Positions 7,457-61,823 of a stretch of DNA of 64,000 bases are shown here, piece after piece. The DNA lies in the IMG/VR virus record IMGVR_UViG_3300032288_004022, positions 1-64,000 of that record. One strand, written 5' to 3'. The stretch is from a virus. Below the pieces are notes generated by a model. That model had not been told where the DNA came from and made no database searches. It saw nothing but the letters and a program-made list of their open reading frames with translations. Position 1 is the first letter of the stretch. The number at the start of each line of letters is the position of its first letter. Both the position numbers and the translations under genes were made by a program.

Positions 7457-8221
7457 ATGGCTGAACAAAACCTGCTACCTGAGTTAAAGCAAAACCTTAT
7501 TGAGTATTGCAAATTAACCATGGGTGATCAAATCATTGATCTTGAATTAGACCCTGCACACTACGAAGCGGCATATCAACGCACAATTGGTACCTATCGC
7601 CAACGTGCGCAAAATGCCTATGAAGAAGCATACATCTTCATGGAACTGATCAAGGATGTGAACATCTACACCCTGCCACAAGAAGTATACAGTGTTAGAC
7701 AGATATTCCGCAGAACGTTTGGCGATTCAACAGGTCCGTTTGCATCAAACTTTGATCCGTTTGCTCAGGCGTCGATCAACGTTTATCTCATGAACTTCAA
7801 CGTGGCCGGCGGCTTGGCCACATATGATTTCTACAGTCAGTATGTTGAACTGGCTGGTCGCATGTTCGGTGCGTACATGAACTACACCTGGAACCCTGTG
7901 ACAAAGAAACTGCAACTGATTCGTGATCCCAAAGGCACAGGCGAAAACGTCCTGCTTTGGGTATATCAAACCAAACCTGAAATTCAACTGCTGAGTGACT
8001 ACCAAATTCAACAGTGGATCCGGGACTACATGGTTGGTGCCTGCAAAATGATCATTGGCGAAGCTCGTGAAAAGTTCTCAACCATTGCTGGTCCACAAGG
8101 CGGCGGCCAACTAAACGGTGCTCAAATGAAGACCGAAGGACAAGCCATTATGGATGCCAAAATTGAAGAACTCAAGATGTACGTGGATGCTTCGCAACCA
8201 CTGACTTGGGTAATTGGCTAA
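7457..8221 (+). CDS. 13: Neck protein (T4 gp13-like)
   Basis: 254 residues; T4 gp13 has 309. Family features are the N-terminal helix LKQNLIEYCKLTMGDQIIDLEL, the YQRTIGTYRQRAQNAYEEAY stretch, and above all the C-terminal block EKFSTIAGPQGGGQLNGAQMKTEGQAIMDAKIEELKMYV, well conserved among T4-like gp13 proteins. It forms part of the head-to-tail collar with gp14. The gp14 gene lies nearby but on the opposite strand, an order not found in T4. Translation may be controlled by the hairpin just upstream. Confidence 0.8.
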   Translation: MAEQNLLPELKQNLIEYCKLTMGDQIIDLELDPAHYEAAYQRTIGTYRQRAQNAYEEAYIFMELIKDVNIYTLPQEVYSVRQIFRRTFGDSTGPFASNFDPFAQASINVYLMNFNVAGGLATYDFYSQYVELAGRMFGAYMNYTWNPVTKKLQLIRDPKGTGENVLLWVYQTKPEIQLLSDYQIQQWIRDYMVGACKMIIGEAREKFSTIAGPQGGGQLNGAQMKTEGQAIMDAKIEELKMYVDASQPLTWVIG

Positions 8222-8250
8222 TTGACATTGATTGCCAGTCTTGCTATAAT
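8222..8250 (+). promoter_or_regulatory. Sigma-70-like promoter, leaderless
   Basis: TTGACA (8222-8227), 17-base spacer, TATAAT (8245-8250). It begins one base after the gp13 stop. Only five bases separate the -10 from the ATG at 8256, so transcription should start at or near the start codon. Confidence 0.8.
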
Positions 8251-8255
8251 ATAGC

Positions 8256-8777
8256 ATGGACTTGATGATTGACATGGAGGGCCTTGCTACCGGCCCCGAA
8301 ACTTGCATTCTTACTATAGCTGCCCAGGGCTTTGATCCCTTTGGTGACGGTTACTATCCCGACAAGTTTTACTATGCCCGCGTTGATCTTGACAGTCAAC
8401 CCAATCGCAAAATTGAACAAGGCACCATAGAGTGGTGGGCCACTCAAAAAGAAGCACAGGTAGAAGCATTTGCCGAAGACGGTCGTATACCCTTGGACCA
8501 AGCACTAGACGAACTGGGCCGCTTGATTTGGCACTCCCGGCGTATCTGGGCTCAAGGCCCCACTTATGACATGACCATCTTGGAGCATGCCTACAAAAGC
8601 TACAATAAGCCTTTGCCCTGGCAGTATTATGCAGTGCGAGATTCAAGAACGGTGTTTAGCCTATGGCCTGAACAACCCATTCCCGCCACCAGTCATCATG
8701 CGTTGGAAGACTGTCGCAGACAAATTGGCATGCTACAAAATACACTTAAATATCTCAAAGTTAAGGAACTCAAATGA
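8256..8777 (+). CDS. dexA: DEDD-type 3'-5' exonuclease (T4 DexA-like)
   Basis: 173 residues with the DnaQ-like DEDDh active site: D6 and E8 in MIDMEG, D105 in GPTYDMTILE, and H147 with D152 in the SHHALEDC motif. TIEWWATQ (residues 57-64) is shared with T4 DexA and the Rv2179c-like 3'-5' exoribonuclease group. In T4, DexA (227 residues) degrades single-stranded DNA and helps recycle host DNA. It is followed by dNMP kinase with a four-base overlap, fitting a nucleotide-scavenging pair. An RNA substrate cannot be excluded. The mRNA is predicted to be leaderless. Confidence 0.82.
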   Translation: MDLMIDMEGLATGPETCILTIAAQGFDPFGDGYYPDKFYYARVDLDSQPNRKIEQGTIEWWATQKEAQVEAFAEDGRIPLDQALDELGRLIWHSRRIWAQGPTYDMTILEHAYKSYNKPLPWQYYAVRDSRTVFSLWPEQPIPATSHHALEDCRRQIGMLQNTLKYLKVKELK

Positions 8778-52432: not shown

Positions 52433-53902
52433 ATGAAAACGTGTACCATAATATTAAAAGATGAAGTAAATATCCGACTGGAAGGACTAGATCTAGATGC
52501 TCGCAAGGCCTTGGTCACGGCTTTTAAATATGATGTACCTTATGCTAGATATCTTCCGGCAGTGAGACTGGGACGCTGGGACGGAAAGGTCTCGTACTTC
52601 CAACTTGGTGGTAGCAGTTATACAAACTTGCTGCCCGAGATTGTTCCCATACTTGAGAAGTTCAATTACGACATTGAACTGGATGATCAAAGAGATTACT
52701 CCACCACATTTGAGTTTGAACAGGTGCGTGAAGACTCATTTGCACATGTGAAATGGCCCAAAGGACATCCTGCCGCTGGTGAACCCATCATGATGCGCGA
52801 CTATCAAGTTGAGATTGTCAACAACTTCTTGGCCAATCCGCAATGCCTGCAGGAAGTGGCCACAGGTGCAGGTAAAACCATAATGACAGCGGCCTTGAGC
52901 AATGCTGTTGCGCCGTATGGACGCTCAATCGTTATTGTGCCCAACAAGAGTCTTGTGACACAGACAGAAAAAGACTACATCAACATGGAGCAGGATGTGG
53001 GTGTGTTCTTTGGCGACAGAAAAGAGTGGGGTCGTACACATACTATTTGTACTTGGCAGAGTTTGAATGTGCTGTTGAAGAATACCAAGGCCGGGGTTGG
53101 TGATTGTACCATTGACGAGTTCCTAGAAGGGGTGGTGTGCGTTATTGTAGACGAAGTACACATGGCCAAGGCAGATGCGCTGAAAACCTTGTTGACTGGG
53201 GTGATGTCTAGAGTGCCAATTCGCTGGGGTTTGACTGGAACCATACCCAAAGAGAAGTTTGAAAGCCAGGCCCTGTTGGTGGGCCTAGGTCCTGTGATTG
53301 GGCGCCTTAGCGCCAACGAATTGCAACAACAAGGTGTTTTGGCCAACTGTCACGTGAATATTGTGCAGTTGGTGGATCACGTGGAGTACAAAGAGTACCA
53401 ATCAGAACTCAAATACTTGCTGGAAGAGTCGGGCCGATTGGATACCATGGCTGACCTCATACGCCGAGTAAATGAAACAGGTAATACTTTGGTGCTCGTG
53501 GACCGAGTGGCCGCAGGACACGCATTAGTAGAACGCCTGGGTGATCGCGCTGTGTTTGTATCGGGCGCAACCAAAGCAAAAGACAGACAAGATGAATATG
53601 ATGAAGTTGCAGACAGCACTGACAAGATTATTGTGGCTACCTATGGTGTTGCCGCTGTGGGTATTAATATCCCTAGGATTTTTAATCTGGTTCTTATTGA
53701 GCCCGGAAAAAGTTTTGTCCGTGTTATCCAGAGCATTGGCCGCGGCATAAGAAAAGCAGAAGACAAAGATCATGTTCAAATTTGGGACATTACTAGCACC
53801 TGTAAGTTTGCCAAACGACATCTGACCAAACGCAAGCAGTTCTACCGAGAAGCCAACTATCCATTCTCAGCAGAAAAGTTGGAGTGGATGAAAATTGCTT
53901 GA
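52433..53902 (+). CDS. uvsW: Recombination DNA/RNA helicase UvsW
   Basis: 489 residues; T4 UvsW has 587 (as two-reading-frame product with UvsW.1). N-terminal domain with FKYDVPYARYLPAVRLGRWDGKVSYFQ is the small DNA-binding domain. Helicase: MRDYQVEIVNNFL (Q-motif), ATGAGKT (143-149), IVIVPNKSLVTQTEKD, DEVH (about 240), GLTGTIP, then SGATKAKDRQDEY, IIVATYGVAAVGINIP and QSIGRGIRK as motifs IV-VI of SF2. In T4 it unwinds R-loops and branched DNA, moving replication from origins to recombination. Usually late expressed. Confidence 0.93.
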   Translation: MKTCTIILKDEVNIRLEGLDLDARKALVTAFKYDVPYARYLPAVRLGRWDGKVSYFQLGGSSYTNLLPEIVPILEKFNYDIELDDQRDYSTTFEFEQVREDSFAHVKWPKGHPAAGEPIMMRDYQVEIVNNFLANPQCLQEVATGAGKTIMTAALSNAVAPYGRSIVIVPNKSLVTQTEKDYINMEQDVGVFFGDRKEWGRTHTICTWQSLNVLLKNTKAGVGDCTIDEFLEGVVCVIVDEVHMAKADALKTLLTGVMSRVPIRWGLTGTIPKEKFESQALLVGLGPVIGRLSANELQQQGVLANCHVNIVQLVDHVEYKEYQSELKYLLEESGRLDTMADLIRRVNETGNTLVLVDRVAAGHALVERLGDRAVFVSGATKAKDRQDEYDEVADSTDKIIVATYGVAAVGINIPRIFNLVLIEPGKSFVRVIQSIGRGIRKAEDKDHVQIWDITSTCKFAKRHLTKRKQFYREANYPFSAEKLEWMKIA

Positions 53903-53933: not shown

Positions 53934-54434
53934 ATGAGAATACTTACTCTTGACAACGTCTATTATGATTTAAATCAACTGCCCGAAGAAGTTGATGACA
54001 TGCGTTTTGCTATCTTGGACAACAGCAATCCACTGGACCCCGACTATCATTTCATCCCACTGATTTTTCTGGAATCGTTCAATGCTCCGGCCCTGGTACT
54101 GCGCATAGGATCAGACACAATCAAAATGCCCATGGATTGGCAAATCTTGATTGGTGAGCCCGACATTGGTGATCTAGAAGTGCTGCCACTGACTTCAATA
54201 AACGATCGCGGCTTCAAGGTATTTCAATTCAATCCACTCAGCAGCTACAGACCCAGTTTCCCCAGTATTGAAATCTTGGATGTGTACCATGAAGTCAACT
54301 GGTACGCACCCAAACTAAAGAACGGGCAGATGTTGGCAGTGCCGCTCAATGATGATCCCGAACCTGACTGTGTGTACTTTGTGAAAGATGTGAGTCGCAA
54401 TTGTGAAATAGTCAACTACAACAAGGCTTGGTAA
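53934..54434 (+). CDS. Conserved phage protein, unknown
   Basis: 166 residues. All-beta or alpha/beta: MRILTLDNVYYDLNQLPEEVDDMRFAILDNSNPLDPDYHFIPLIFLESFNAPALVLRIGSDTIKMPMDWQILIGEPDIGDLEVLPLTSIN. The alternating hydrophobic strands with PMDWQI and ending in a Val-Tyr-Phe-Val-Lys-Asp repeat are distinct. I know similar proteins only as unknown phage proteins. Leaderless promoter and position before cupin gene (one base apart) suggest a short operon running to 57294. Confidence 0.6.
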   Translation: MRILTLDNVYYDLNQLPEEVDDMRFAILDNSNPLDPDYHFIPLIFLESFNAPALVLRIGSDTIKMPMDWQILIGEPDIGDLEVLPLTSINDRGFKVFQFNPLSSYRPSFPSIEILDVYHEVNWYAPKLKNGQMLAVPLNDDPEPDCVYFVKDVSRNCEIVNYNKAW

Positions 54435-54435
54435 C

Positions 54436-54783
54436 ATGGAAAACCTAATAGTCAACACAAACGACGTTGGCGGAGTCGTGGTCAAGGACAACGACACCTA
54501 CATGCTCAAAGACAACACCACTTTGAAACATCTTGTGCTCAGTAGTACCAAGCTTTATCGTGGGCAGCAGACTCGGGGGCACAGACATCAGGGTCAAGAA
54601 GAAGTGTATTTCTTTGTTCAAGGACACGGACGCATGATTGTGGGCAACGAAGATAGTGAGCCGTTTCAGGTAATGCCAGGAGCAATTGTGCTGATTCCCG
54701 ATGGTGCATTTCACAGAGTGATCAACGACGGTGACATCAACATGATCTTTAACTGTGTGTTTCAAGGCACAAGGAATCACTAA
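54436..54783 (+). CDS. Cupin domain protein
   Basis: 115 residues with a single cupin barrel: RGHRHQGQEEVYFFVQGHGRMIVGNE is cupin motif 1 (G(X)5HXH(X)3,4E(X)6G), with H49, H51 and E55 or E56, and VMPGAIVLIPDGAFHRVIND is motif 2 with its His. It would bind metal. Relatives include sugar epimerases and mannose-6-phosphate isomerases, so a link to nucleotide-sugar metabolism in the glycan island is possible. It overlaps the next start by one base. Confidence 0.82.
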   Translation: MENLIVNTNDVGGVVVKDNDTYMLKDNTTLKHLVLSSTKLYRGQQTRGHRHQGQEEVYFFVQGHGRMIVGNEDSEPFQVMPGAIVLIPDGAFHRVINDGDINMIFNCVFQGTRNH

Positions 54784-55055
54784 TGGGCAGTCTCCGGCCT
54801 GGCGCCACATACATCTATGAGCGAGCAGATGGTGTTGTGTATGCTCGAGAGTCAGGTGCAGACCCCAGCACAAGACAGGTAATTGGAATGGATTACGATC
54901 CAAGAACCCCTGACCGACGTCCTTTGCATGATCACATCTCTGAAGACAAATTGTGGGGAGAAATACGGCGAGCTGCCCGCACCAATCCCACTTTACAGGA
55001 TGCACTGAACCGCGCTATAATGATTTACCAACTGAGTAAAACCAATGATGCCTGA
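54783..55055 (+). CDS. Conserved small T4-like protein, unknown
   Basis: 90 residues. The start GSLRPGATYIYERADGVVYAR is a highly recognisable opening shared by proteins of many aquatic T4-like phages. Middle: VIGMDYDPRTPDRRPLHDHISEDKLWGEIRRAARTNPTLQDALNRAIMIYQLSK, ending helical. Its function is unknown. Overlaps both neighbours (one base upstream, 11 downstream), suggesting coupled translation. Confidence 0.7.
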   Translation: MGSLRPGATYIYERADGVVYARESGADPSTRQVIGMDYDPRTPDRRPLHDHISEDKLWGEIRRAARTNPTLQDALNRAIMIYQLSKTNDA

Positions 55056-55287
55056 AGAACAGGAAGCACACAATGAGTGGAACGATGGCCGCACAAGGTG
55101 GAAATACAAGACCTTGACTTTGCACGAGGGTGAGCTGACTGACCAACTCACCACACATGGAGTGTTTGGATGGGAACTGGCAGCAATGCACCCTGACAAA
55201 AGAAACAATTCTTCTGTAAATTGTTTTATTGTGGTAATGAAACGCCCTTTTTGGTTCGAACAGCCGCCGGAGCCATCCAATGAGTGA
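55045..55287 (+). CDS. Small DUF4177-like protein
   Basis: 80 residues (79 if the second Met is used). TRWKYKTLTLHEGELTDQLTTHGVFGWELAAMHPDKRNNSSVNCFIVVMKRPF has the order of DUF4177-type proteins: WxYKxL, L, GxxGWEL, and a final beta-strand hairpin with V/I-V-M-K-R. The role of such proteins is unknown. Overlaps both neighbours. Confidence 0.6.
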   Translation: MMPEEQEAHNEWNDGRTRWKYKTLTLHEGELTDQLTTHGVFGWELAAMHPDKRNNSSVNCFIVVMKRPFWFEQPPEPSNE

Positions 55288-55726
55288 TCGACTAAGCATT
55301 GCCAATGAAATGCGACAGTTTGACCGCAAGGCAAGATCATTCTATGACGACTTGACTCCAGAAGAGCGCAAAAAGTTTTCAAACTACTTGATGATACGTT
55401 GGGGATCATCTGTGGAAGGATCACGTGAACTACAAGAGTTCTATGTGATTGCCACCAACGAGCGACTGAACAAATACTTCTTTGATGTCAGCCGGCATCC
55501 CAAACTACAATGGCTCATGGCCACTAGTGTGAGTCCTGGTATGGGCACGCCAAGACATCCGTGGATTGCGCCAAAGAAAAAAGAAGCAGGACTCAGCGCC
55601 AAACGCAAGGCCTTGATGGCCATGTATCCCACCTACAAAGATGATGAGATTGATGTCATGGCGCAAATAACAACTCAAAAAGAAATTGACGCATACAACC
55701 GAGCTGCGGGCAACGACAAGAAATGA
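55280..55726 (+). CDS. Clamp-loader small-subunit-like protein (T4 gp62-like, tentative)
   Basis: 148 residues; T4 gp62 has 187. The centre reads KFSNYLMIRWGSSVEGSRELQEFYVIATNERLNKYFFDVSRHPKLQWLMATSVSPGMGTPRHPWIAPKKK. YLMxxx and WLMATSVSPGMGTPRHPW resemble the NYLMAAVPRGKRYGKW stretch of T4 gp62, which bridges the sliding clamp loader gp44. Direct similarity is weak, and the C-terminus (AMYPTYKDDEIDVMAQITTQKEIDAY) is a small helical piece not in T4. gp44 is not in the window. The tentative call rests on pattern and its position near other replication genes. Confidence 0.5.
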   Translation: MSDRLSIANEMRQFDRKARSFYDDLTPEERKKFSNYLMIRWGSSVEGSRELQEFYVIATNERLNKYFFDVSRHPKLQWLMATSVSPGMGTPRHPWIAPKKKEAGLSAKRKALMAMYPTYKDDEIDVMAQITTQKEIDAYNRAAGNDKK

Positions 55727-56397
55727 CATTCACGTGCGAGTTTTGCAAAAAAGAATTTGCTAGAGAAACGTCAATAGCAGTTCACATGTGTGAGCCCAAA
55801 CGCAGACGCTTGGCTCGAGATGAACCCGGAGTGCGCATGGGTTTCCAAGCCTACATTCGATTCTATGAGACCATGCAAGGCAGTGCAAAAAACAAAACAC
55901 ACGATGATTTTTGTGAAAGTTCATACTACCGGGCATTTGTGAAATTTGGAAACTATTGTGTAAACACCAATGTTGTTGCACCTCAACGTTTCATGACCTG
56001 GCTGCTGAAAGCACAAAAGAAAATTGATCACTGGTGCAGTGACAAAGTTTACACAGAATACTTGATTGAATACCTGCGTGTGGAAGCAGTGGACGATGCC
56101 CTGGCCCGTGCAATAGAACACAGCATGCGTTGGGCAGAAGAAACAGGTAACCCTGCACATGACTGGATGCGGTATGGCAACACCAATAGTCTATGTTATG
56201 CTGTCACAGCCGGACGCATAAGTCCCTGGGTGATTTACAATTCAGAATCAGGACAAAAGTTTCTAAGCGAACTCAGCACAGAACAAGTAGCCATGGTATG
56301 GCCCTACATTGATAGTGACGCCTGGCAAAAAAAGTTTGTTAACTACCCAGCAGATCAAGAGTACGTGAAAGATATATTAAACAAGGCAGGATGGTAA
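55723..56397 (+). CDS. Zinc-finger-headed conserved phage protein
   Basis: 224 residues. The N-terminus is a C2H2 finger: C5-x-x-C8 and H17 with C23 (FTCEFCKKEFARETSIAVHMC), followed by basic KRRRLAR. The rest is an alpha-helical domain found in many aquatic T4-like phages (GFQAYIRFYETMQGSAK, FGNYCVNTNVVAPQRFMTWLLK, IEYLRVEAVDDALARAIEHSMRWAEETG, NSLCYAVTAGRISPWVIYNS). The finger suggests nucleic-acid binding; function not known to me. One base gap to the next gene. Confidence 0.68.
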   Translation: MTFTCEFCKKEFARETSIAVHMCEPKRRRLARDEPGVRMGFQAYIRFYETMQGSAKNKTHDDFCESSYYRAFVKFGNYCVNTNVVAPQRFMTWLLKAQKKIDHWCSDKVYTEYLIEYLRVEAVDDALARAIEHSMRWAEETGNPAHDWMRYGNTNSLCYAVTAGRISPWVIYNSESGQKFLSELSTEQVAMVWPYIDSDAWQKKFVNYPADQEYVKDILNKAGW

Positions 56398-56398
56398 C

Positions 56399-56746
56399 AT
56401 GATTAGAAACATCACAGCAGGCCTGGGCATTCACATTTCAGGCAATAATTACAGCACACCTTACGTTGACATGGCTCGACCCAGTGCGGGCATGGTTCGA
56501 TGCAACGGATCAAGTATTGAAGTATACGATGGATCAACCTGGTTAATGCTGAGTTCAAATATTCCACAGATTGAACTAGACGGAGTGACACAGGAAGCTA
56601 TTCAGTGGGTTCGGCGTAAAATGGAAGAAGAAAAACGAATGTTGGAGTTGGCAAAAAAACATCCAAGTGTAGCAGATGCATTGGCAGCGGTGACTCATGC
56701 TGAAGAACAAGTTCGAATTGTGGCGGCATTGGTAGACACAGCATGA
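56399..56746 (+). CDS. Small protein with YDGxxW module, unknown
   Basis: 115 residues. N-terminal half is beta-rich and short: GLGIHISGNNYSTPYVDMARPSAGMVRCNGSSIEVYDGSTWLML. This repeats the YDGxxW element seen in the C-terminal parts of gp14 and gp15 and resembles small fibre or decoration domains. The second half is a coiled coil (IQWVRRKMEEEKRMLELAKKHPSVADALAAVTHAEEQVRIVAALV). May be a virion or assembly protein. Overlaps the mini-polymerase gene by four bases (ATGA). Confidence 0.6.
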   Translation: MIRNITAGLGIHISGNNYSTPYVDMARPSAGMVRCNGSSIEVYDGSTWLMLSSNIPQIELDGVTQEAIQWVRRKMEEEKRMLELAKKHPSVADALAAVTHAEEQVRIVAALVDTA

Positions 56747-57294
56747 GTGCAGACATTGACATTGACTTTGCCAACAGAGAAACTGTGTTGAAATTGATTC
56801 AGCATGTTCCTGCACGACAAAGCAACGGAAGACGTCACAATTCTGGTGTGTATGTCACAGATATTCCTGTAGACCCTGTAAATGGCTGTGCAGCCATAGA
56901 CTATGAATCAGCCGAACAGCGCGGCTACTTCAAACTGGACTTTTTGAACATGAGTGTGTATCAGTTGATTCGTGATCAACAGCACTATGACGAAATGTTA
57001 AACACAACACCTCCATGGTCAAGACTGTGGACAGATGGACCTTGGGCCTCTCAACTGGTACACGTGGGCAATTATACAGACTTGCTACGAATGATGAAAC
57101 CAGATTCGATACCCAGGATGGCTGCTTTTATCTCAATCATTCGCCCGGGCAAAGCACATCTACAAATGAAACCCTGGGCCGAAGTATTTGCCACGGTATG
57201 GGACGGCGATGACTCACAGGGCTACACATTTAAGAAAAGCCACGCAGTTTCCTACGCGGCTCTTGTGGCCTTGCACATGAATCTCACCAACTGA
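56743..57294 (+). CDS. Miniature C-family DNA polymerase (DnaE/PolC alpha)-like protein
   Basis: 183 residues. Segments match the bacterial DNA polymerase III alpha core in the right order. ADIDIDF (3-9) parallels PDFDVDF, which has catalytic D401 and D403 in E. coli; HNSGVYV (32-38) parallels HAGGVVI; GYFKLDFLNM (61-70) parallels GLVKFDFLGL with catalytic D555 (here D66); KPDSIPRMAAFISIIRPG (119-136) parallels QPDCFEDMIALVALFRPG; GYTFKKSHAVSYA (160-172) parallels GYGFNKSHSAAYA. So all three catalytic Asp positions (D4, D6, D66) are kept, while most of the 1160-residue enzyme (PHP, thumb, much of fingers, tau- and clamp-binding parts) is gone. Whether it polymerises DNA is unknown. Last gene of the 53934 operon, after a zinc-finger protein and a clamp-loader-like protein. 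Confidence 0.75.
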   Translation: MSADIDIDFANRETVLKLIQHVPARQSNGRRHNSGVYVTDIPVDPVNGCAAIDYESAEQRGYFKLDFLNMSVYQLIRDQQHYDEMLNTTPPWSRLWTDGPWASQLVHVGNYTDLLRMMKPDSIPRMAAFISIIRPGKAHLQMKPWAEVFATVWDGDDSQGYTFKKSHAVSYAALVALHMNLTN

Positions 57295-57295
57295 T

Positions 57296-57673
57296 TCAGT
57301 CCATTCTTCGCACCAGCGTGATTGATTTGCGTTTGGATTTTTTTCGCACAATGTCCAGCAAACTGCATGCCGGACCGTGCAGGATTTCTAGATCTTTGTT
57401 GACAAAAGTGCGTAAGGTGTAGCGGAACTGTTCCCAGTCATTGCGCAGGAATATGTTGATGGGGATTGAGCGATTGCTCTCCCACCACCATGTGCTGGCC
57501 AGTTCTAAAAACAGAATCTTGGAATTCTGATCCACCACAGTCCCAAAATCGTAGATCGTGGTCACAATGTCATCTCTGTTTTGCACAATGCCCACGTATT
57601 CTGTGTTGGCGTACACACAGAGTGTGATAAAGGGATATTTTTCTGTCAATTTTTCAAATATATTGTTACCCAT
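57296..57673 (-). CDS. Conserved phage protein, unknown
   Basis: 125 residues, minus strand, one base from the convergent mini-polymerase stop. Alpha/beta with a distinct core: FITLCVYANTEYVGIVQNRDDIVTTIYDFGTVVD, then KILFLELASTWWWESNRSIPINIFLRNDWEQFRYTLRTFVNKDLEILHGPACSL, and a basic tail RKKSKRKSITLVRRM. The WWWESNR and IPINIF stretches are striking, and I know the family from aquatic T4-like phages only as unknown. The basic tail suggests nucleic-acid or partner binding. Confidence 0.65.
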   Translation of the reverse strand: MGNNIFEKLTEKYPFITLCVYANTEYVGIVQNRDDIVTTIYDFGTVVDQNSKILFLELASTWWWESNRSIPINIFLRNDWEQFRYTLRTFVNKDLEILHGPACSLLDIVRKKSKRKSITLVRRMD

Positions 57674-57702: not shown

Positions 57703-57762
57703 TAGGTGTAGTTCGCGATACTGGAAATATCCAACTACTCTATGATTGAAAGGAATCACAGC

Positions 57763-58281
57763 ATGACTACTTATACCAGAAACAGTCCGCCGGTTGGATA
57801 CTATGTATACGCTTACCTGAGAGAAGATGCCACGCCTTACTACATTGGAAAAGGCACAGGATCACGTGCATGGGCAGATCATAATTTAATCGCTGTTCCA
57901 CCAAACAACAGAATAGTAATAGTTGAACAAAATCTAACAGATCTTGGTGCCCTAGCGATTGAAAGACGACTAATACGCTGGTACGGCAGAAAAAATATTA
58001 AGACAGGAATTTTACGAAATTTCACAGACGGAGGAGATGGATCTGAAGGAAGAATAACGTCGGACACCACAAAACAAAAAATCACTAGTGCAAAATCTGG
58101 CAAGAAACGAACAGATACTGTTTGGAACAAAGGTGTTAAGTATGGCCTCGAAATTAAGCGTAAACTTGATATTTCAGGATTGGCAAAAGGACAGGGGTGG
58201 AACAAGGGAAAATCACTAAGCGAAGAGCATAAAGCAAACCTCAAGAAGGCATGGGAACGACGCAAGGCAACCGCTAAATAA
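57763..58281 (+). CDS. GIY-YIG homing endonuclease
   Basis: 172 residues from the ATG with AAAGGAA upstream; an earlier in-frame ATG at 57742 has no site. Domain order: [26 protein letters not shown] carries the VYAY/YIGKG form of GIY-YIG, then a central Arg and Glu ([13 protein letters not shown], Glu near residue 67), and NUMOD3-type repeats ([44 protein letters not shown]). Free-standing mobile gene like that at 4201, but a different subgroup (the two share little sequence). Its A/T-rich code stands out. Confidence 0.85.
58275..58280 (+). promoter_or_regulatory. Late-type promoter box for the structural gene
   Basis: CTAAATAATAG, TAAATA at 58275-58280, in the end of the homing gene and four bases before the ATG at 58285. 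Leaderless late transcript predicted. Confidence 0.55.
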
Positions 58282-59386: not shown

Positions 59387-60376
59387 ATGCTTGACATCCT
59401 TGCTTATCTGCCTGCCAAAAGAAAACCCAGCCCTCAAGGCTGGCTGAGTTTCAATGCAGTTTGTTGTCAGCACAATGGACAAAGTCCAGACCGCCGCGGA
59501 CGTGGTGGCATCAAGGTCACAGAATCGGGTTGGAGCTATCACTGCTTCAACTGCTCTTATACTGCCAGTTTCACACTCGGACGAACACTCAGCTTCAAGG
59601 CACGCAGACTTCTTGGGTGGATGGGTGTGCCAGACAATGAGATTGAAATGCTCAATCTTGAAAGCCTACGTCATCGCAACATGCACGGCATCCTGGAAGA
59701 TCGTCAACGTGTTGCCAACATAGTTTCAGGAATTGAGTTTGCGGAGTCAGATGACTTCCCGCCATACACAGAAGTGGTCACACCTGAATTTCCTTTGTAT
59801 TGGAATTATATTCGTCAGCGTCGAGTGCCCGAAGACTTTCCAGTGATGACATCGATCAAAACTGATGGTGCAAATTGGACTAGACCCTATGTGTTGATTC
59901 CGTTTACATATGACAATCAAGTAATAGGCTGGACTGCTAGATTTTTAGATAACAAGATTCCCAAGTATATCAATCACAGTCAACCCGGCTATGTGTTTGG
60001 CACAGATCTGCAACAGCCCGACTGGCGATATGTGATTGTCACAGAAGGCATTTTTGATGCACTCAGCATTGGTGGACTTGCACTGATGCACAACACCATC
60101 AGCGATGGCCAAGCAAAACTAATTCGCAGTCTGGGTCGAGAAGTCATTGTTGTGCCTGATCAGGACCTGCCCGGTACTGAATTGATTGATCGTGCAGTTG
60201 AACTAGGATACAGCGTGAGCATTCCGGCCTGGCCCGATCATGTCAAGGATGTCAACGATGCCGTGATAGAATATGGTCGACTTGGAGCCTTGCTAACTAT
60301 AATGGCAGCACGAGAAACCAGCCGAATTAAAATTGAAATAAGGAAGAAGCAACTTGTTAAAAGAATACGGACTTGA
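59387..60376 (+). CDS. 61: DNA primase (T4 gp61-like)
   Basis: 329 residues; T4 gp61 has 342. An N-terminal zinc finger: C26/C27, H29 and then C53-x-x-C56 in GWSYHCFNCSYTAS. The TOPRIM core has VIVTEGIFDALSI with the catalytic Glu and VVPDQDLPGTELI with the metal DxD-like Asp, and LIPFTYDNQVIGWTARFLDNKIPKYINHSQPG between them fits gp61. It makes RNA primers with the gp41 helicase, whose gene overlaps it by 23 bases. The mRNA is predicted leaderless. Confidence 0.9.
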   Translation: MLDILAYLPAKRKPSPQGWLSFNAVCCQHNGQSPDRRGRGGIKVTESGWSYHCFNCSYTASFTLGRTLSFKARRLLGWMGVPDNEIEMLNLESLRHRNMHGILEDRQRVANIVSGIEFAESDDFPPYTEVVTPEFPLYWNYIRQRRVPEDFPVMTSIKTDGANWTRPYVLIPFTYDNQVIGWTARFLDNKIPKYINHSQPGYVFGTDLQQPDWRYVIVTEGIFDALSIGGLALMHNTISDGQAKLIRSLGREVIVVPDQDLPGTELIDRAVELGYSVSIPAWPDHVKDVNDAVIEYGRLGALLTIMAARETSRIKIEIRKKQLVKRIRT

Positions 60377-61823
60377 TGTCCAACGACTGTTTCTAGAAAT
60401 GATGTTGGAGGACGCACAAAGTTATGTGCGTGTTCAAAACATCTACAACCCGCAGAACTTTGATAGAAGTTTGAGACCTGCCGCTGAGTTTGTCAAAGAA
60501 CACAGCGACAAGTTCAAGACCATGCCGGATCGCGCACAGATTGCGGCTGCCACAGGCATCAAACTACAGTCTGTGCCGGACTTGAACGAGGGGCACTTTG
60601 ACTGGTTCATGAACGAATTTGAAGCATTTACCAAACGTCAAGAACTAGAACGTGCAATTTTGAAATCTGCAGACTTGCTGGAAAAAGGCGACTTTGAACC
60701 AGTTGAAAAACTCATCAAAGATGCAGTGCAAATATCACTCACCAAAGACATGGGCACAGACTACTTTGCTGACCCTGCAGCTCGCATCAACAAGTATTTC
60801 AACTCGGGCGGCCAAGTATCAACGGGCTGGCCGCAACTGGACAGATTGCTGTATGGTGGATTCAGTCGTGGTGAGCTCAACATCTTTGCAGGCGGATCGG
60901 GTTCAGGTAAATCCTTGGTCATGATGAACATTGCACTGAACTGGTTACAACAAGGATTGAGTGGGGTGTACATTACACTGGAACTGTCAGAAGAACTCAC
61001 AAGTTTACGAACAGATGCCATGTTGACCAATATGAGCACCAAGGACATTCGTCGAGACATTGACACAACAGAACTCAAGGTCAAACTTGTGGCCAAGAAG
61101 TCTGGACAGTATCGTGTGAAAGCACTGCCGGCACAAAGCAACATCAATGATATTCGCAGCTACATCAAGGAAGTACAGATTCAAACAGGAATCCGTGTGG
61201 ACTTTATCATGGTGGACTATCTGGACTTGTTGATGCCGGTGAGTGCCAAGGTTTCGCCCAATGACCTGTTTGTGAAAGACAAGTATGTTTCGGAAGAACT
61301 ACGTAACTTGGCCAAAGAGCTAGGGTTGTTGATGGTTACTGCGTCGCAGTTGAACCGTAGTGCAGTGGAAGAAATTGAATTTGACCACAGCCATATTTCA
61401 GGTGGTATCTCCAAGATTAACACAGCAGACAACGTGTTTGGTATTTTTACAAGTCGTGCCATGAAAGAGCGCGGCAAGTATCAGATCCAGTGCATGAAGA
61501 GTCGTAGTTCAACAGGTGTTGGGCAAAAGATTGACCTGGAATACAATATTGAAACCATGCGTATCACAGACGAAGGCGGCGATGAAGGGACAGGTTACCA
61601 GAAGCCACAAAGCAGCATCATGGATTCAATCAAGGCTCGGAGTCAGGTCAAGACTGCCGATACCACAGAAGATAGCACACCTACTCAGTGGGAAAAGCCG
61701 ATTGGTGGAACTCATGCATGGGACAAACCAATGGCCAAACTTGATGACAGCCCAAAAGTAACAGCAGATGTTCAAAGTGCAAAACTAAAACAATTGTTAG
61801 GACAAATTAGATCATCACAATGA
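60354..61823 (+). CDS. 41: Replicative DNA helicase (T4 gp41-like, DnaB family)
   Basis: 489 residues; T4 gp41 has 475. The TTG start at 60354 has AAGGAAG upstream and lies inside the primase end. N-terminal domain (LDVQRLFLEMMLEDAQSYVRVQNIYNPQNFD) is followed by the RecA fold: STGWPQLDRLLYGGFSRGELNIFAGGSGSGKS (Walker A, 180-187), GVYITLELSEELTSLR, IMVDYLDLLMP as Walker B, and LLMVTASQLNRSAVE with the sensor. The C-terminus is a linker with Pro, Ser and Thr of about 80 residues. Hexameric helicase moving 5'-3'. Overlaps radical SAM gene by four bases. Confidence 0.93.
   Translation: MLKEYGLDVQRLFLEMMLEDAQSYVRVQNIYNPQNFDRSLRPAAEFVKEHSDKFKTMPDRAQIAAATGIKLQSVPDLNEGHFDWFMNEFEAFTKRQELERAILKSADLLEKGDFEPVEKLIKDAVQISLTKDMGTDYFADPAARINKYFNSGGQVSTGWPQLDRLLYGGFSRGELNIFAGGSGSGKSLVMMNIALNWLQQGLSGVYITLELSEELTSLRTDAMLTNMSTKDIRRDIDTTELKVKLVAKKSGQYRVKALPAQSNINDIRSYIKEVQIQTGIRVDFIMVDYLDLLMPVSAKVSPNDLFVKDKYVSEELRNLAKELGLLMVTASQLNRSAVEEIEFDHSHISGGISKINTADNVFGIFTSRAMKERGKYQIQCMKSRSSTGVGQKIDLEYNIETMRITDEGGDEGTGYQKPQSSIMDSIKARSQVKTADTTEDSTPTQWEKPIGGTHAWDKPMAKLDDSPKVTADVQSAKLKQLLGQIRSSQ

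Follow-up and report, generated by a model that had tools for sequence, protein, structure and literature searches.

A protein of an uncultivated virus as the very probable half of a split, minimal C-family polymerase core

The subject of this report is a small gene in a 64,000-nucleotide stretch of viral DNA (hereafter the window), which comprises positions 1-64,000 of the IMG/VR record IMGVR_UViG_3300032288_004022 (full length 95.6 kb, classed as linear, label G000). The gene is an open reading frame (ORF) of 183 codons that extends on the plus strand from an ATG at 56743 to 57294; its ATG overlaps the stop codon of the preceding ORF (56399-56746) as ATGA, and one translated reverse frame of the locus contains seven stops. 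We identify its product of 183 amino acids (aa), labelled B, as the C-terminal half of a split minimal DNA polymerase III (Pol III) alpha, a member of phrog_11778 that comprises the second part of the palm and a reduced fingers domain; the label A is used for the separately encoded N-terminal half. Four motifs can be located in the gene, all on the plus strand. A DIDIDF motif, read directly from the sequence as well as from the alignment, occupies residues 4-9 (56752-56769) and corresponds to D401, D403 and D405 of the E. coli enzyme, while K64-L65-D66 (56932-56940), aligned with E. coli K553 and D555, supplies the third metal ligand. R134-P135-G136-K137 (57142-57153; E. coli R639-P640-G641) and K164-K165-S166-H167 (57232-57243; E. 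coli N757-K758-S759-H760), likewise placed by alignment, belong to the fingers.

A sequence-only reading of the window had listed five short blocks typical of C-family polymerases in this protein and proposed homology to that family on their account. All five are present in B in the order given, and chance is ruled out as their origin by two profile matches from the PHROGs database: residues 3-181 match positions 7-190 of the 197 in phrog_11778 ('DNA polymerase') with an E-value of 5.2e-52, and the full-length DnaE profile phrog_405 matches weakly, in three stretches, with an E-value of 4.6e-8. Other sequence comparisons returned little. The single B sequence has no match in Pfam and matches no chain in the PDB, NCBIfam yields DnaE matches below threshold only, the best E-value of a nine-sequence B profile searched against Pol III alpha chains of solved structure is no better than 0.17, and aligning B to E. 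coli DnaE by sequence alone with hhalign gives a weak match (E 0.0021, probability 13.6%, residues 37-137). The homology is supported by the phrog_11778 match together with the superposition of the predicted structure on Pol III alpha. PHROGs itself labels both phrog_11778 and phrog_11127, the family of A, merely as 'DNA polymerase'.

Structures of both halves were predicted with AlphaFold2 from alignments of 54 B and 66 A sequences. The model of B has a predicted local distance difference test score (pLDDT) of 93.7 and a predicted template modelling score (pTM) of 0.83; the corresponding values for A are 86.5 and 0.63. In VIA-align 2 the B model superimposes 181 of its 183 residues on residues 460-833 of Taq alpha (3e0d) with Z 9.4 at 3.6 A, and 179 residues on residues 399-776 of E. 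coli alpha (2hnh) with Z 8.3 at 3.9 A; another E. coli alpha structure (5fku) gives Z 6.3, and the lowest-ranking Pol III-type match (Z 5.9) still stands above the best unrelated one (Z 3.4). The fit to E. coli alpha is therefore nearly full-length, and the three catalytic aspartates that the sequence-only reading had equated with E. coli D401, D403 and D555 (D4, D6 and D66) are located inside the aligned core. For A, residues 76-172 superimpose on E. coli alpha 278-393 (4jom; 94 residues aligned, Z 11.1, 2.2 A), with the best unrelated match at Z 2.3; the first 70-odd residues have no counterpart in the list of structure matches.

The residue map, obtained by alignment to E. coli K-12 DnaE and numbered after it, pairs D4 with D401, D6 with D403, D8 with D405, H32 with H511, K64 with K553, D66 with D555, R134 with R639, K165 with K758, H167 with H760 and Y171 with Y764 in B, and R141 with R362, G142 with G363 and S143 with S364 in A. 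Across the 54 B sequences there is no variation at D4, D6, D8, K64, D66, R134, P135, K137 or H167, and across the 66 A sequences none at G138, G140, R141, G142, S143 or S144. It had also been suggested that the sequence between the blocks is cut down in B. Indeed, residues 10-27 are all that B has between its counterparts of E. coli 406 and 507; E. coli 407-506, which we take to be the thumb, is mostly skipped, and nothing beyond E. coli 776, where presumably the clamp- and tau-binding parts lie, is aligned. Neither structure nor sequence alignment reveals a PHP, thumb or clamp-binding domain in the 183 aa of B. The alignment of B begins at E. coli 399-401, and the GS motif (E. coli G363-S364) is missing from it and located in A. 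B therefore does not contain both palm halves in one chain, as a complete C-family polymerase does. A reaches E. coli 393 and B begins at 399, so the halves abut without overlap.

The N-terminal half was sought with PF07733 in 11 records, namely those of eight named phages (for the Vibrio phage a 349-kb partial record), the 95.6-kb record that contains the window, and two further IMG/VR records, G001 and G002. A small second protein was found in nine of them, i.e. in all eight named phages and in G001, and phrog_405 recovers the identical nine; neither profile finds a match in the record of the window or in the 130-kb G002. The proteins have about 170-200 aa (typically about 172), carry G-x-G-R-G-S, terminate close to an E-F-L/F motif, and correspond to the stretch of DnaE immediately before PDFDVDF, the very point at which B starts. 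All six A proteins that were scanned score above the PF07733 cut-off, spanning just positions ~18-95 of its 260. With a profile built from 11 A proteins, residues 320-393 of E. coli DnaE are matched at E-values of 1.4e-4 to 1.9e-4, hhalign of A against the single E. coli DnaE sequence gives E 3.1e-5 and probability 72.9%, and the A protein of L127, which is 100% identical to that of G001, matches phrog_11127 with E 4.2e-40.

At the break between the halves, all 105 distinct A ORFs terminate 1-3 residues past an EFL-type motif. Of the 188 distinct B ORFs, 165 have their most upstream ATG 1-8 residues before DxDxD and nine have it 12-25 residues before; in the other 14 the open frame contains no ATG upstream of the motif. 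The two genes are separated by roughly 15 to 224 kb in the named phages (about 14 kb in CM1) and by about 96 kb in G001, the B of which shares 84% identity with that of the window. No ORF of at least 50 aa in the examined loci matches both profiles, as a fusion of A and B would.

The two halves tend to occur together. Both are present in all eight named phages, and 57 of the 60 listed phage records with B are also among the 60 listed for A (out of 138). The three B records outside the listed A records, one of 109 kb and two from Erwinia phages whose group is itself listed, may all be among the remainder; the three A records outside the B list are RAS14, in which B was found separately, and two entries for Onyinye, which has other DnaE-like genes. 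The IMG/VR records compared for co-occurrence were hand-chosen, the B-bearing ones mostly for length, and may be fragments, so a record that shows one half without the other is not decisive. Among 13 such records with B, a full A is found in nine, including all seven of at least 223 kb; among 17 with A, B is found in 13, including all seven of at least 299 kb, one of the four of 209-289 kb and five of the six below 200 kb. As to other polymerases, a B-family enzyme was found in all eight named phages, with no match in the 95.6-kb record of the window, G001 or G002, and Pol A in none of the 11 records searched.

A further arrangement was encountered in three of 24 records searched, two of which had themselves prompted the search. 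It is a one-chain, PHP-less DnaE of about 551 aa (L435:11427-13079 in G013, L407 in G012, and G018:93794-95413), which in G013 matches PF07733 and PF17657 and directly follows a gp41-like helicase. It is made of the same palm and finger families as A and B, but is not split. G018 (337 kb) encodes this protein in addition to split A and B, so some phages possess two C-family cores.

B is under purifying selection, with a ratio of nonsynonymous to synonymous substitution rates (dN/dS) of about 0.1: the values are 0.07-0.13 in 14 of 15 pairwise comparisons with relatives, the 15th being saturated at synonymous sites and several others having dS above 1. A decayed gene was considered and rejected in view of this ratio and of the invariant catalytic residues. 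Relatives are widespread in phages. A tblastn search of 50,697 phage records with B gave a match in 79, in 63 of which it covers at least 80% of the protein, and among weaker matches includes Streptomyces DnaE genes; the generalization in the sequence-only reading that C-family polymerases are normally absent from T4-like phages accordingly fails in this clade. Identity to the 60 matching records that were listed is 31-44%, with 44-33% for Phosso, PA5oct, Paride, Atu_ph07, GAP32, 121Q, RaK2, SCTP-2 and XacN1, and 31% for Stenotrophomonas phage CM1. Both half-families are abundant in IMG/VR, with more than 500 matching stretches each (at least 599 for B and at least 593 for A); 524 of 534 candidate stretches encode B relatives, the best 80 of which were retained. 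A search of 84,980 species genomes with B found 11 loci, every one with the title of a metagenome-assembled genome, so B looks phage-specific, with some contigs mis-binned among bacteria. Two phages with DnaE-like genes were considered as possible parallel cases of a split: Streptomyces phage Izzy has a single DnaE gene of 3480 bp, and Mycobacterium phage Onyinye has two DnaE-like genes with a different layout.

Some B homologues have been deposited as 'hypothetical' or as 'putative membrane protein'. The latter label, which clashes with the polymerase fold, is carried by those of CBB, Muenster, 7t3, GAP32 and several Erwinia phages; the GAP32 record refers for it to a TMHMM prediction. In NC_042013.1 the start annotated for FDI40_gp074 (L087:8067-8561) falls within the stretch that matches B (8001-8537), so the DIDID motif is missing from the protein as deposited; the open frame extends upstream to take it in.

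The genes around B form a conserved block. At its upstream end in the window lies a UvsW-like helicase (phrog_16, 52433-53902, plus strand), followed on the same strand by a phrog_11058 protein with an N-terminal C2H2-like zinc finger (55723-56397) and by the 115-aa ORF directly upstream of B (56399-56746), whose PHROG match is at chance level (E 0.25) and which has no match in Pfam. Downstream, a convergent 125-aa protein of phrog_11637, a family of unknown function (57296-57673, minus strand), which adjoins B in most homologous loci, is followed by an ORF at 57742-58281, a DNA primase (phrog_47, 59387-60376, plus strand) and a DnaB/gp41-like replicative helicase (phrog_19, 60354-61823, plus strand). 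The ORF at 57742-58281 matches the homing-endonuclease family phrog_314 (6.4e-7) and, weakly, NUMOD3, with two families of unknown function scoring better, and looks like a mobile insertion. Neighbours were counted in 250 B and 131 A loci, each time only in those with enough flank; the loci are not independent, as many come from close relatives and some overlap. phrog_11637 is found within 1 kb of B in 204 of 210 loci, always on the opposite strand. In 129 of 136 loci phrog_11058 lies no more than 2.5 kb from B. Of the 21 loci whose flanks reach 5.5 kb in either direction, 20 contain the primase, 20 DnaB and 18 UvsW within that distance. B of the window, between UvsW and the primase and helicase, matches this conserved placement, which was itself derived in the present analysis.

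A has different neighbours. A gp44-like clamp loader (assigned by phrog_168, E 1.2e-77) lies within 2.5 kb of A in 83 of 87 loci and near B in none, while primase, DnaB and phrog_11637 are absent from the vicinity of A and UvsW is within 1 kb in two of 121 loci. The sequence-only reading had placed a clamp-loader-like protein in the operon that ends with B, and we find none among the ORFs of 53934-57294 by PHROGs (for some also by Pfam); it is A that the clamp loader adjoins in relatives.

The proteins of phrog_11058 and phrog_11637 are possible partners of B. The former matches C2H2-like fingers over ~20-30 residues, with one weak match to the CopG family and E 0.053 only against Pfam zf-C2H2; the latter has no PDB match at E 1. 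Every one of the 58 records with phrog_11637, and each of the 60 listed out of 61 with phrog_11058, also appears in the list of 60 B records. But phrog_11279, a neighbour that served as control, is likewise found in 58 records, and by eye all 20 that were listed carry B, so the pattern may just mark the clade and does not single the partners out. Outside the window, where the rest of the record was surveyed by the first residues of its ORFs, ORFs resembling ClpX, Hsp20 and ClpS were noted by eye in L433 (record positions about 92,650-95,230), and two adjacent ORFs resembling IscU/NifU and IscA in L432:7183-7903 (about 70,180-70,900).

A system of this kind has been described before. For the jumbo phages of group 2.2, Iyer et al. 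(2021, PMC7824862) predicted a minimal DNA polymerase III alpha that is split in two and is present alongside a family B polymerase; they suggest that the split enzyme serves one strand or repair, and propose such forms as ancient. Atu_ph07, named there as a member of group 2.2, has both A and B in our analysis. B of the window is very probably the C-terminal half of a split enzyme of this group 2.2 kind, in a new uncultivated member whose B shares 31-44% identity with the matches in the 60 phage records listed and whose record does not contain A. The split point, the residue map, the complementary models, the counts of co-occurrence and neighbourhood and the analysis of selection appear to be additions to that work, although some of this may already be contained in its figures or supplement. 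The accessible portions of three other papers (PMC11646218, PMC11348598 and PMC13282480) do not describe the split enzyme, and the terms 'DNA polymerase III' and 'split' are absent from those of the last, a review from 2026. A laboratory test of the split enzyme was not found in the literature searched, whose coverage mostly left out subscription papers and bioRxiv preprints. Compared with the bacterial DnaE of E. coli or Taq, B shares the fold of the second palm half and fingers and the equivalents of D401, D403, D555, K553, R639, K758 and H760, but lacks the PHP, thumb, clamp-binding and tau-binding parts and the GS-bearing half that the bacterial protein combines in one chain of 1160 aa.

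Taken together, we put the probability that B is one half of a split C-family polymerase core at about 95%, and the pair of A and B probably works as a DNA polymerase. In DnaE and PolC, the G-x-G-R-G-S loop of the palm holds the triphosphate, and residues equivalent to those listed above act as metal ligands or in the fingers. A would provide this loop, and B the catalytic aspartates, the lysine equivalent to K553 and the reduced fingers. The two proteins are predicted to pair non-covalently as a heterodimer, which would rebuild a single two-metal nucleotidyltransferase site able to add deoxynucleoside triphosphates to a primer. Because A and B lack the PHP, thumb and clamp-binding parts, the enzyme is expected to be distributive or weakly processive unless held at the fork by partners, for which the primase and helicase near B and the clamp loader near A would be candidates. 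The co-existing B-family polymerase of all eight named phages suggests an auxiliary enzyme that would act beside it in primer extension, lagging-strand or gap synthesis; gene order by itself makes primer extension or gap synthesis the likely role.

Several observations weigh against this interpretation. In Foldseek, Pol III alpha is ranked first for B, with a modest best E-value of 0.0023, and the best value for A (0.013) is modest too. No A was found in two of the 13 B-bearing IMG/VR records (130 and 74 kb), G012 and G013 show only an A-like stretch within the one-chain polymerase, and four of the 17 A-bearing records (288, 262, 228 and 192 kb) show no B. The A gene was not found in the 95.6-kb record of the window itself, although this record is linear and may be a fragment, so that the missing A is not decisive. 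Besides, processive DNA synthesis may be beyond a pair that has neither a thumb nor a clamp site.

One alternative is that A and B together form a nucleotidyltransferase other than a replicative DNA polymerase, such as a primer synthetase, a terminal transferase or an RNA-end enzyme with a C-family site. The missing PHP, thumb and clamp-binding parts, the separate B-family polymerase and the primase near B in 20 of 21 loci would suit such an enzyme, but the fingers motifs RPG and K-x-H are kept, which suggests templated synthesis, and we regard it as unlikely. A similarly low chance is given to a scheme in which the pair would be a phage equivalent, in several subunits, of a primer-extending polymerase: A, with the clamp loader, and B, with the primase and helicase, would meet only at the fork and hand primers to the B-family enzyme, the phrog_11058 and phrog_11637 proteins replacing the thumb and processivity parts. 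In that scheme the two-piece active site would confine synthesis to assembled replisomes. That B acts by itself as a minimal polymerase, the miniature envisaged in the sequence-only reading, is hard to credit: it does contain every metal ligand and is modelled confidently on its own, but the first palm helices and the GS loop reside in A, a separate protein kept in all eight named phages, and the boundary of both families falls at the same point of the palm.

The same reading also raised the idea of a decoy that would compete for clamp, tau or nucleotide with the Pol III of the host. The small size of B would agree with such a decoy, or with an inactive regulator, but B covers nothing past E. 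coli 776, dN/dS is about 0.1, and this role is very unlikely because no catalytic residue varies among the 54 B and 66 A sequences and the two halves are retained together. Least probable of all is that the halves are joined by a split intein or by trans-splicing. The halves of cyanobacterial DnaE are joined in this manner, and intein-split replication genes are found in phages as well. Here, however, A ends so close to its EFL-type motif that no N-terminal intein half follows, each half has its own start and stop, and most B proteins begin 1-8 residues before DxDxD; the gene ends, by which alone the presence of intein halves at the break was judged, leave no room for them, and the explanation is rejected.

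If A and B do form one enzyme, a polymerase active site shared by two separately encoded proteins would be unusual, and the two chains, which total about 350 aa, would to our knowledge make up a C-family polymerase core smaller than any other. Such an enzyme would also bear on the question of which parts of the bacterial Pol III are dispensable, on the proposed antiquity of such forms, and on why large T4-like phages retain two unrelated polymerases.
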